NCBI GenBank assembly: GCA_032355985.1
Contig: JAUKVZ010000006.1
Location: forward strand, 186,001-250,000
DNA length: 64,000 nucleotides
Direction: 5' to 3'
Origin: Sarcodiotheca gaudichaudii
Taxonomy: Eukaryota > Rhodophyta > Florideophyceae > Gigartinales > Solieriaceae
Numbering within the stretch: position 1 is the stretch's first letter; every line of letters begins with the position of its first letter. Positions 45,793 to 50,442 of this stretch are shown here, piece after piece. Below the pieces are notes generated by a model. That model was not told the origin of the DNA, did not search any database, and saw nothing but the letters and a program-made list of their open reading frames with translations. The position numbers and the translations under genes were made by a program.

Positions 45793-46746
45793 TTACGACT
45801 TCTTCCCGAGCACGAAGCCGATCAGCGCACAGATGACGGCAAGGCCGCCCAGCGCTCCAATGACGATCATGAACTTATCGCTCAGCAGATGCGTGATCGG
45901 ATTGTGCCCGACATCCATCAGGCCGCCGATCACCGCCACCATGCCCACGCTCAGCGCCACCAACGACGCCAGCGCAAGCCCGCCGACAAGACCGCTGCCC
46001 GGTCCGTCATAAGGCTCGGCGATCATCAAAGCGCCGGCGCCGCCCATCGCTGAGCCCGCAGCCGGTGCGCTGATCTCTTCATCGTCGCCTTCAAACAACC
46101 CGCTCGCGCCCGGCGCGCCGGCAGCGGAATTTGAGGACTCCTCGTCGGCGTACAGATCATCAAGGAACTCGACGGCGCCGAGCGATGTGTCATCACTCTC
46201 GCGCGTCAGATCAAGCAGACCCGAGCCGGAGCCAACCGATTCCAGCGAAAGCTCGCCGATGCCGTCTTCCGTCACAAGCGTGTCCGCCGAAGCGTCCACC
46301 TCGTCAAGATCCTCTTCGTCGGCGTCAAAGATGCTCACGCCGGTCTTCTGCTTGGGATTGTCTTCTGCAGTCAGCTCGCCCGAATCGCCAAGCGAAATCG
46401 CCGCCGCCGAACCGCTGCCCATGCCCGGCTCTATGCCGGTGCCCATGCCCGAGCCTTCGCCCGAATCGAGATTCGTCTGCTCAACGCCGATCGAGTCAGC
46501 AAGATCAATCGCATCGCCCGCCAGTGAATCCGCAAGCGGAATCATGCTGCTCATGTCAGCAGGATCAACATCGTGATCTTCGCCTTCATCCGAAGACAAC
46601 AGATCGATCTGATCGACCTTGAACATCAGCTTGTCGCGATCGCGAAACTCCTGGATACGACCGCTCGAGGCCATCTCGCGCACCTCGTCCTCGCTCGTTC
46701 CGAGCTTCTCCGCGGCCTCTTCCAGTGTGTAGAACATCTTGGCCAT
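45793..46746 (-). CDS. Membrane-anchored protein with N-terminal helix-turn-helix and acidic linker
   Basis: A 317-residue protein. Residues 1-55 look like a MerR/excisionase-type DNA-binding fold (FYTLEEAAEKLGTSEDEVRE, then SSGRIQEFRDRDKLMFK). About 55-235 are a low-complexity, strongly acidic Gly/Ser/Asp/Glu linker. Two hydrophobic helices at about 247-272 and 288-312 end the protein. I know no function. A membrane-bound DNA- or protein-tethering factor would fit. ATG 46746 is used; ATG 46737 is a close alternative. Confidence 0.72.
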   Translation of the reverse strand: MAKMFYTLEEAAEKLGTSEDEVREMASSGRIQEFRDRDKLMFKVDQIDLLSSDEGEDHDVDPADMSSMIPLADSLAGDAIDLADSIGVEQTNLDSGEGSGMGTGIEPGMGSGSAAAISLGDSGELTAEDNPKQKTGVSIFDADEEDLDEVDASADTLVTEDGIGELSLESVGSGSGLLDLTRESDDTSLGAVEFLDDLYADEESSNSAAGAPGASGLFEGDDEEISAPAAGSAMGGAGALMIAEPYDGPGSGLVGGLALASLVALSVGMVAVIGGLMDVGHNPITHLLSDKFMIVIGALGGLAVICALIGFVLGKKS

Positions 46747-46850
46747 CGAATTTGGCCTCCGTAGACATGCGGCTGATGGGCGAAAACCCCCGACGGGCCG
46801 CTCAGTATCGCAAGTGGGGCGGATCTTGCAACGCTATCCTCAGGTCACGC

Positions 46851-47660
46851 GTGCCCCAATTCACCCCCGAGACAGCCTTTCGCACGCCGGACCCGTTTCA
46901 TCGTATCCGGCTCAGATGCCCGGACCTCCCTGAGGCCCTCGAAGGCTTCACCATCCTCCAGCTCACCGATCCTCACGTTCGCCGCAATCGGCCTCGATTC
47001 CAGCGCCTCAGCAGGGCTCTCGCCCGCATCAGGCCCGATCTGGCCGTCATCACCGGCGACTGGATGAGCTACCCGGGCGATGAACCCATCGCTCGCGCCG
47101 TCCTCCGGGAAGTCGCGGACGCCCTCGTGCCCAAACACGGGATCGTCGGCGTCTTCGGGAATCACGACACCCATCTCTTTCGCACCGAATACGCCCCGGA
47201 TCCCCGCGTTTCGTGGCTTCCAGACGGGTTCCACGATGTCTCCGGCCTTCCTCTGCGGCTCCTCGCCCTCAACTGGCCGGAGGACTGGCCCGCCGTCGCC
47301 GCACAAAGCGAGCCCGACCGGGCCGACAATCGCCTCACACTGGGCCTCATTCACCATCCCGGCGCCGCGCCGGGCGTCGTCCGCCTCGGAGCGGACATCG
47401 TCCTCGCCGGCCACACCCATGGCGGCCAGCTCCGCCTCCCATGGCGATGGGCGCCCTACACATCCAGTGAAATGCCCCGCAGGCAGGCCGCAGGCATCTT
47501 CCGACTGTCAGACGCCCAGCTCTGCATCAGCCGCGGCATGGGCGACGCCGGACTCGATTTCCGCCTCTTCTGCCCGCCGCAGATCCCCCTCTACACGCTC
47601 ACAAGAGGCCCCTTACCCGAAGCGCGCGACACCATCACCGGCCTCGTCGAGGCCTGGTGA
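46851..47660 (+). CDS. Metallophosphoesterase (YkuE-like)
   Basis: A calcineurin-type phosphoesterase of about 269 residues. The two-metal motifs are complete: LTDPHV (DxH), TGDWMSYPG (GDx), GNHD, LIHHP and GHTHGGQL. The family-typical C-terminus CISRGMGDAGLDFRLFCPPQ is present. Such enzymes hydrolyse phosphoesters such as UDP-diacylglucosamine or other lipid head groups; the substrate here is unknown. No leader peptide is seen from GTG 46851, which I choose because homologous sequence begins about there. ATG 46767 would add 28 residues of unlikely composition. Confidence 0.83.
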   Translation: MPQFTPETAFRTPDPFHRIRLRCPDLPEALEGFTILQLTDPHVRRNRPRFQRLSRALARIRPDLAVITGDWMSYPGDEPIARAVLREVADALVPKHGIVGVFGNHDTHLFRTEYAPDPRVSWLPDGFHDVSGLPLRLLALNWPEDWPAVAAQSEPDRADNRLTLGLIHHPGAAPGVVRLGADIVLAGHTHGGQLRLPWRWAPYTSSEMPRRQAAGIFRLSDAQLCISRGMGDAGLDFRLFCPPQIPLYTLTRGPLPEARDTITGLVEAW

Positions 47661-48671: not shown

Positions 48672-48699
48672 TCCCTCCACGGTTGCACCCGTGGAGGGA
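48672..48699 (+). other. Perfect 11-bp hairpin just upstream of the tRNA
   Basis: TCCCTCCACGG at 48672-48682 pairs perfectly with CCGTGGAGGGA at 48689-48699 around TTGCAC. No T-run follows on either strand. It ends 14 bases before the tRNA and may be a processing or leader element. Confidence 0.6.
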
Positions 48700-48713: not shown

Positions 48714-48798
48714 GCCCCCGTGGCGGAATTGGAAGACGCGGCCGATTTGCAATCGGTGACTCAGGGTGAGTTTGCGGGTTCGAACCCCGCCGGGGGCA
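48714..48798 (+). tRNA. Class II tRNA with leucine-type body and UGC (alanine) anticodon
   Basis: An 85-base cloverleaf with no mispair in the main stems. Acceptor GCCCCCG/CGGGGGC with A73. The D arm TGGCGGAATTGG is leucine-like. Anticodon stem GCCGA/TCGGT (one G-U) closes loop TTTGCAA, giving anticodon TGC. The variable arm is ACTCA/TGAGT with a GGG loop. T arm GCGGG TTCGAAC CCCGC. CCA is not encoded. Pair 3:70 is C:G, so the G3:U70 alanine determinant is missing. Shifting the loop by one base in either direction breaks the anticodon stem. It would be charged with leucine by body rules while reading alanine codons, or it may not act in ordinary translation. Confidence 0.88.
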
Positions 48799-48872: not shown

Positions 48873-48895
48873 GTTTGAAAGGAAGCATCGTGAGT

Positions 48896-49207
48896 ATGGA
48901 ATACTCAATTGTTCGAAAAGCGATCCTGAACAAGCAGCAGATCGTTGCGACTTACCACCAGCGCGAGCGTTTCTTGTGTCCGCATGTGATCGGAACGAAG
49001 AATGGCCGCGAGCAGGCACTGTTCTACCAGTTTGGGGGCCATAGCAGCAGTGGCATTGACCCCGATGGATCGAGTCGCAACTGGCGATGCATGCGCATCG
49101 ATGAACTCGACGACGTGACCGCGGTCGATGGCGAGTGGCACACGGCCCCGAACCACTCACGCCCTCAGACGTGTGTGGATGTGATTGATGTGGAGGTGTC
49201 ACGCTAG
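48896..49207 (+). CDS. Small WYL-like domain protein
   Basis: A protein of about 103 residues (105 from GTG 48890) with the look of a compact WYL-type beta-barrel: IVRKAILNKQQIVATYHQRE, CPHVIGTKNGREQALFYQFG, NWRCMRIDELDDV. WYL domains bind ligands or nucleic acids and often regulate defence or stress genes, but this one lacks a helix-turn-helix. GGAAG lies 4 bases before GTG 48890 and 10 before ATG 48896; the start is unsettled. It is the first gene after the unusual tRNA and converges with a small minus-strand gene. Confidence 0.65.
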   Translation: MEYSIVRKAILNKQQIVATYHQRERFLCPHVIGTKNGREQALFYQFGGHSSSGIDPDGSSRNWRCMRIDELDDVTAVDGEWHTAPNHSRPQTCVDVIDVEVSR

Positions 49208-49602: not shown

Positions 49603-50442
49603 TCAGCGCTGGCGAGGGGCGTCGGCGCTGCGAATCGCTTCCCGCCCGCGGCCATGGACGCCCAGATGAATCCGCTCCAGCGAATCGCACAGCTTCAGCA
49701 CAGCCCGGCTCTGGCCCGGAATTGACCGAAGTTTCTCGACACCCATCTGCATTGGTTCATCCGGATTGCGGAAGAGCTGCTTGAAGGCGATGCGAAGCGC
49801 CTCGATCTCGCCCACCGACCAGCCGCGCCGAACCAGCGCCGTCGTGTTGACCTTGCGAGGCTCCGCCGGCGATCCCTCGACGACGAGGAAGGGGGCCACA
49901 TCCTTCGTGATGCGCGCCATGCCGCCGACGAATGAAAGCTGCCCGACCGTCGCGAAGTGATGCACACCCGCGCCGCCGGCGATCGTCGCGCCGTATTCGA
50001 CAAGACAATGCCCGCCGAGCATCGCGCCGTTGGCGATCACGACTTCATCTTCAATCACGCAGTCATGCGCAATGTGAATGCCGACCATCAACAGACAGTC
50101 GCTGCCGATCACCGTGCGTCCACCGCCAAGTTCGGTGCCGCGATGAATCGTCGCGTGCTCGCGAATGCGATTGCGATCGCCGATGACGAGCTCGGTGTGC
50201 CCGCCCTTGTATTTCAGATCCTGCGGCTCAGCGCCGATCACCGCGAATGGATAGAGAACATTGTCCTCACCCATGCGCGTCGGGCCGTGCACAGTCACAT
50301 GATTGTGAATCACGGTGCGAGCGCCGATGGTGACATCCGCTCCGACAACCGCATACGGTCCGATCTTCACTCCCTCGCCGACAGTGGCGCGCGGGTCGAC
50401 GATTGCCGTCGGGTGAATCTCGGCGTGTGTGGAGATGCTCAT
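49603..50442 (-). CDS. lpxA: UDP-N-acetylglucosamine O-acyltransferase
   Basis: A 279-residue left-handed beta-helix enzyme that starts lipid A synthesis by moving a hydroxyacyl chain from ACP to UDP-GlcNAc. Hexapeptide repeats fill about residues 5-190. The catalytic His region HIAHDCVIEDEV and the GAEPQDLKYKG segment are intact, and the C-terminal helical domain follows (RRGWSVGEIEALRIAFKQLF). It is the last gene of the bamA-ompH-lpxD-lpxC/fabZ-lpxA series; its ATG lies next to the lpxC-fabZ stop. Confidence 0.95.
   Translation of the reverse strand: MSISTHAEIHPTAIVDPRATVGEGVKIGPYAVVGADVTIGARTVIHNHVTVHGPTRMGEDNVLYPFAVIGAEPQDLKYKGGHTELVIGDRNRIREHATIHRGTELGGGRTVIGSDCLLMVGIHIAHDCVIEDEVVIANGAMLGGHCLVEYGATIAGGAGVHHFATVGQLSFVGGMARITKDVAPFLVVEGSPAEPRKVNTTALVRRGWSVGEIEALRIAFKQLFRNPDEPMQMGVEKLRSIPGQSRAVLKLCDSLERIHLGVHGRGREAIRSADAPRQR

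Follow-up and report, generated by a model that had tools for sequence, protein, structure and literature searches.

A leucine-type class II tRNA gene with an alanine (UGC) anticodon in a probable planctomycete chromosome

Results and discussion

Genomic setting

The window, i.e. the whole stretch of 64,000 nucleotides analysed here, is bacterial chromosomal DNA, probably from a planctomycete, an assignment taken over from the original prediction. Its LpxC-FabZ fusion is 43% identical to that of one planctomycete metagenome-assembled genome (MAG). A tRNA gene is located in a 1.9-kb gap between a gene for a calcineurin-like phosphoesterase (46725–47660) and lpxA (49603–50442), which agrees with the gene-poor setting described in the original prediction. 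The core genes around this gap comprise flgI-like, lpxA, lpxC-fabZ, lpxD-like, ompH and bamA-like genes. The features of the locus are listed below; the parts of the tRNA were read from the sequence unless stated otherwise.

48673–48698, plus strand: perfect 10-bp hairpin CCCTCCACGG-TTGCAC-CCGTGGAGGG
48714–48798, plus strand: class II tRNA gene with a leucine-type body and the anticodon UGC (ARAGORN, RF00005 at 53.8 bits, isotype profiles)
48714–48720, plus strand: 5' strand of the acceptor stem, GCCCCCG, with C2:G71 and C3:G70
48721–48740, plus strand: U8 to N26 with the leucine-type D arm TGGCGGAATTGGAAGACGCG, including A14, A15, G18G19 and A20a
48741–48757, plus strand: anticodon arm GCCGA-TTTGCAA-TCGGT
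48748–48750, plus strand: anticodon TGC, reading the alanine codons GCA and GCG (position 35 as given by ARAGORN)
48758–48773, plus strand: long variable arm GACTCAGGGTGAGTTT, whose last base T48 is the Levitt partner of A15
48774–48790, plus strand: T arm GCGGGTTCGAACCCCGC
48791–48798, plus strand: 3' strand of the acceptor stem, CGGGGGC, and discriminator base A73, without an encoded CCA
48890–49207, plus strand: open reading frame (ORF) of 105 residues

The hairpin occurs once in the window, ends 15 bases upstream of the tRNA and is not followed by a T run. The 105-residue ORF starts 91 bases past the tRNA on the same strand. It has no Pfam match, is 54% identical to a hypothetical protein of small colicin N-type plasmids from E. 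coli and Shigella, and has a further relative in one viral contig. A link between this ORF and the tRNA was considered and dropped, as neither the plasmid relatives nor the one in the viral contig gave a sign of an associated tRNA; the plasmid tables, which list none beside them, omit RNA genes.

A sigma-70-like promoter is absent in front of the tRNA and likewise in front of the tRNA-Pro gene of the window; such scans say little about planctomycetes, and the absence at the UGC tRNA is uninformative because tRNA-Pro lacks the promoter equally. No integrase was seen. An attachment-site duplication was rejected because every 13-base stretch of the tRNA occurs only once in the window. Among the window ORFs tested there is no duplicated leucyl-tRNA synthetase (LeuRS) or other synthetase, and none of the genes flanking the tRNA was recognised as encoding a nuclease, a transferase or a defence function. 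A class I Ala-UGC gene was not detected in the planctomycete MAG G001. Such genes are often part of rRNA operons, which tend to be missing from MAG assemblies, and this gap was therefore left out of the argument.

Fold of the tRNA

ARAGORN called a tRNA-Ala(tgc) at 48714–48798, and the Rfam tRNA model RF00005 scored this segment with 53.8 bits (E = 8.9e-9), above the gathering cut-off of 29 bits. The acceptor stem GCCCCCG/CGGGGGC forms seven of seven pairs, the anticodon stem GCCGA/TCGGT five of five (one of them G-U) around the loop TTTGCAA, and the T arm GCGGG-TTCGAAC-CCCGC again five of five. The variable arm of 16 bases contains the stem ACTCA/TGAGT. A one-base shift of the register disrupts the anticodon stem; UGC is thus the only reading with a seven-base loop, as originally proposed. 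The tRNA core pattern matched once in the window and never in 100 shuffled versions. Unconstrained folding favours a different structure that lies 6.9 kcal/mol below the cloverleaf, compared with 0.7 to 8.0 kcal/mol for ordinary leucine tRNAs in the same table. CCA is encoded neither here nor in the tRNA-Pro of the window. The segment is a genuine tRNA gene with an intact class II cloverleaf.

Leucine identity and alanine anticodon

Alanine tRNAs are characterised by a G3:U70 pair in the acceptor stem and by the short variable loop of class I. The window tRNA has neither: the parsed acceptor stem contains C3:G70, in line with the original prediction, and the 16-base variable arm takes the place of the short loop. 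With the anticodon masked, the tRNA scored best as leucine (30.7 bits, against 15.8 for serine and 5.4 for alanine) in isotype profiles that were built from small sets of planctomycete tRNAs and are rough, since the tRNA-Pro of the window scored higher as threonine than with the two-sequence proline profile. Together with the Rfam score and the parsed sequence, this bears out the description as a leucine-type class II body with A73 and a UGC anticodon.

In E. coli the leucine determinants are A73, A15-U48, G18G19, A20a, U8:A14 and contacts between the D- and T-loops, and leucine identity is independent of the anticodon and the variable arm (PMC9976931). C2-G71 acts as an antideterminant against SerRS (PMC9976931). 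All determinants that can be read from a sequence (A73, A15-U48, G18G19, A20a and U8:A14), as well as C2-G71, are present in the window tRNA. The anticodon, in contrast, is UGC and not of the leucine type (NAR, with A35). The molecule therefore unites leucine identity elements and an alanine anticodon. From the presence of the leucine determinants and the lack of G3:U70 we predict leucylation, and the earlier expectation of charging by LeuRS agrees with the published identity set. If transcribed, the tRNA should carry leucine and read GCA and GCG.

Meaning of GCA and GCG in the host

The codon assignment was examined in alignments of LpxC-FabZ, UvrD and the B12-dependent ribonucleotide reductase, for which as many as seven genomes supplied homologues. 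Columns with GCA contained 48% alanine and 1% leucine among the homologous residues (n = 75), and those with GCG 42% and 5% (n = 659). GCC columns gave 43% alanine and 4% leucine; CTG columns contained 52% leucine. Both codons thus occur at alanine positions in the same way as GCC, which rules out a reassignment to leucine for the genes tested. GCG (816) and GCA (133) amount to 6.2% of the 15,254 window codons, a count in which a few ORFs may be spurious. Judged from these alignments, the genetic code appears unchanged, with GCA and GCG as ordinary, abundant alanine codons. Since they make up about 6% of all codons and mean alanine, hardly any protein would be spared if Leu-tRNA(UGC) worked efficiently. 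The tRNA must therefore be silent, present in small amounts or outcompeted. The suggestion that the tRNA places leucine at GCA and GCG is accordingly possible on paper, but such insertion would be minor at most.

The choice of alanine codons depends on the strand in the window genes; those on the plus strand mostly use GCC and those on the minus strand mostly GCG.

Occurrence in other genomes and in phages

An exact pattern consisting of a leucine D arm followed by YTTGCA was run on 84,980 genomes and 2.9 million viral contigs. It matched 15 stretches in genomes, a lower bound because a single D-loop length was scanned there, and two in viral contigs. Four of the genomic matches (L005, L008, L010, L013) were discarded as intron-split tRNA-Leu genes, judging from their sequences, and three more (L003, L015, L017) as chance matches inside coding DNA. 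Besides the window copy, inspection left eight genomic tRNAs with a leucine body and UGC and two from phages. The genomic records are assigned to Algoriphagus, Bacillota, Bacteroidetes, Planctomycetota, Myxococcota, Prevotellaceae, Methanothrix and Clostridia; they are mostly MAGs, in which contigs may be misassigned.

Several copies have a phage or integrative context. The viral contig L001 carries terminase-like and head-gene-like ORFs (read by eye), and its tRNA has every stem paired and an encoded CCA. In the second viral contig (L002) part of the T arm is lost. A tyrosine integrase gene lies roughly 1 kb away from one genomic copy (L004). The mismatch, which the original prediction had implied to be unique, also occurs in further phyla and in phages, where most copies are degraded. 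It is rare there and arises independently. A partial literature search returned no published description of a bacterial tRNA with a leucine body and an alanine anticodon.

A broader scan of the viral contigs for a leucine-type D arm combined with a non-A base at position 35 returned, among the matches listed, class II tRNAs with A73 and the anticodons UGG, GUC, ACC, GCC, CCA and UGU as well as the stop anticodons CUA, UUA and UCA. Leucine-type bodies carry many non-leucine anticodons, UGC among them. When the loop is masked, the tRNA of the window agrees with the UGC tRNA of L001 at 52 of 62 positions, with a phage stop-suppressor at 51, with another non-leucine phage tRNA at 50 and with ordinary leucine tRNAs at 48. 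The other UGC copies likewise resemble one another no more than they resemble further leucine-type tRNAs. A single, horizontally spread UGC family is therefore unsupported, and the anticodon switch seems to have arisen repeatedly.

Condition of the acceptor stem

Of the eight UGC copies from genomes, six have a mispaired outer acceptor stem, compared with none of the 31 ordinary leucine tRNAs sampled (Fisher p = 9e-6), in a comparison restricted beforehand to sequences with three or more acceptor pairs and in which ordinary and UGC genes of the same genome are partly dependent. A73 is missing in three of the eight, again compared with none of the 31. The anticodon, T and variable arms of the damaged copies are mostly intact. 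Complete acceptor stems were observed in the window copy, in the phage copy L001, and in L016 and L009, the last with a C-A mismatch in the anticodon stem.

Two readings fit this damage. It could reflect selection against chargeable hybrids, or the 3' end could have been exchanged by integration, a possible reading in view of the integrase near L004. The contrast between intact ordinary leucine tRNAs and mostly broken UGC copies suggests counter-selection of charged hybrids.

Comparison with known mismatched tRNAs

Proline tRNAs with alanine, asparagine or threonine anticodons from Streptomyces mistranslate in E. coli and have a dedicated synthetase, ProRSx (PMC11415595). These tRNA-ProX of Streptomyces and Kitasatospora (ProA, ProN, ProT) resemble the window tRNA in being bacterial, chromosomal and mismatched between body and anticodon, including an alanine anticodon (PMC11415595). 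They differ in the proline body, A34 anticodons, A33, A15-A48 and the co-encoded ProRSx, whereas the window tRNA has a leucine class II body, UGC, a normal U33 and A15-U48, and the window ORFs tested did not include a synthetase. Ser-type allo-tRNAs share a class II body that is charged without reading of the anticodon; their non-cognate anticodons are very diverse, and some copies are degraded or linked to transposons (PMC7609411). Allo-tRNAs with non-serine anticodons have been used in E. coli (PMC7609411, reviewing Mukai et al. 2017). Their acceptor domain is of the 8/4 or 9/3 type (12 bp) with SerRS identity, in contrast to the 7/5 arrangement and LeuRS identity observed here.

With ordinary bacterial tRNA-Leu the window tRNA has the D arm, the variable arm, A73, A15-U48, U8:A14 and C2-G71 in common; it deviates in the anticodon (UGC instead of NAR), with G at position 35, which is A in all leucine tRNAs. 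Anticodon-switched phage tRNAs of the leucine type (L032, L038, L049, L087, L097, L123, L130 and others) have the same type of body and also non-leucine anticodons, but they are phage-borne, carry other anticodons and often encode CCA. By analogy, the window tRNA should on paper work like tRNA-ProX and the allo-tRNAs, though without a nearby dedicated synthetase or a sign of use. As LeuRS ignores the anticodon, leucine tRNAs are a natural raw material for ambiguity of the code, and an intact chromosomal leucine tRNA with an alanine anticodon is a test case for whether bacteria keep, silence or use such molecules.

Proposed origin and alternatives

Based on these observations we propose, with moderate confidence, that the gene is a sporadic, anticodon-switched tRNA-Leu of hybrid identity, which can be charged but is weakly expressed, outcompeted or silent. 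The anticodon of a tRNA-Leu gene would have changed to UGC while the body stayed leucine-type. CCA would be added to the transcript enzymatically, and LeuRS, blind to the anticodon, would charge the tRNA with leucine. EF-Tu would then deliver Leu-tRNA(UGC) to GCA and GCG in competition with normal tRNA-Ala. Variants of this sort may emerge time and again where tRNA-Leu genes are mobile or duplicated, and most of them would later decay. We infer the charging, the weak expression and the origin from a duplicated or mobile copy; neither an integrase nor a 13-base tRNA repeat in the window supports a mobile origin of this particular copy. If switched on, it could slip leucine into alanine positions.

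A dead pseudogene, never transcribed and inactivated so recently that decay is yet to come, is possible, if unlikely. Anticodon-switched copies elsewhere are mostly damaged, and the authors of tRNAscan-SE regard tRNAs with isotype conflicts as probably non-functional, though not automatically as pseudogenes (PMC8450103). Here, however, all stems are paired and all identity bases intact. Unlike most of its genomic counterparts the gene does not look decayed, and its intact fold argues for some use. This fold and the full leucine identity set, together with the intact, CCA-encoding phage copy and the precedents of tRNA-ProX (PMC11415595) and Ser-type allo-tRNAs (PMC7609411), would also suit an active, selected mistranslator that is expressed under some condition and inserts leucine at a fraction of GCA and GCG codons. 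We regard this as rather doubtful, given that even modest use would be costly at about 6% of codons, that a counterpart of ProRSx was not among the window ORFs tested, and that the other genomic UGC copies mostly have damaged acceptor stems. Only tentatively can one imagine a broader version, in which leucine-bodied class II tRNAs with non-leucine anticodons form a loose functional class in phages and some bacteria. This leucine counterpart of the Ser-type allo-tRNAs would serve deliberate low-level mistranslation or act as decoys, and the window gene would be its intact chromosomal example, supplying leucine at alanine codons under particular conditions.

A role outside translation or in defence seems improbable. 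The tRNA would then distract nucleases that cut anticodons, donate its amino acid off the ribosome, or be of phage origin and retained for some other reason. The many anticodons on leucine-type phage bodies, the proposal that phage tRNAs resist host anticodon nucleases (PMC10264068) and the plasmid-like small ORF nearby are consistent with it; against it, the neighbourhood of the tRNA contains no recognisable gene for a nuclease, a transferase or defence, and, as a weak point given tables without RNA genes, the plasmid relatives of the ORF list no tRNA. The window probably comes from a draft or metagenome assembly, in which a normal tRNA-Leu might have been misread, but this would require two or more specific substitutions, all of them within the anticodon (UAA to UGC), and the identical mismatch occurs independently elsewhere, which makes a sequencing or assembly error very improbable. 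A reassignment of GCA and GCG from alanine to leucine throughout the host organism, for which only the presence of the UGC tRNA speaks, has a practically negligible probability in view of the homologue alignments.

Further tRNA genes

The scans also returned other unusual tRNAs. Viral leucine-type class II tRNAs with proline, aspartate, glycine, tryptophan or stop anticodons were found in L038, L053, L087, L102, L125, L032, L049, L097, L123, L048, L090, L121 and L130. Five viral loci (L026:5685-5715, L040, L045, L054, L068) contain class II tRNA-Asn with anticodon GUU, U1-A72, G73, a leucine-type D arm and a variable arm of about 28 bases. Phage candidates for tRNA-Gln with UUG (L030, L042, L064, L079, L092, L119) and for tRNA-His with GUG (L052, L061, L077, L116) combine a leucine-type D arm with a short variable loop. 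Planctomycete MAGs contain tRNA arrays of about 10 to 17 genes within 2 kb, several of them low-scoring (L174, G001:C79:15936-17603; L176, G011:C65:314-2096; L196, G012:C150:1307-3087). In contig C30 of G001 (L138/L139), an intact tRNA-Leu(CAA) is accompanied by two 5'-half copies of a tRNA of this type, 6 to 9 kb apart, which suggests integration into the tRNA.
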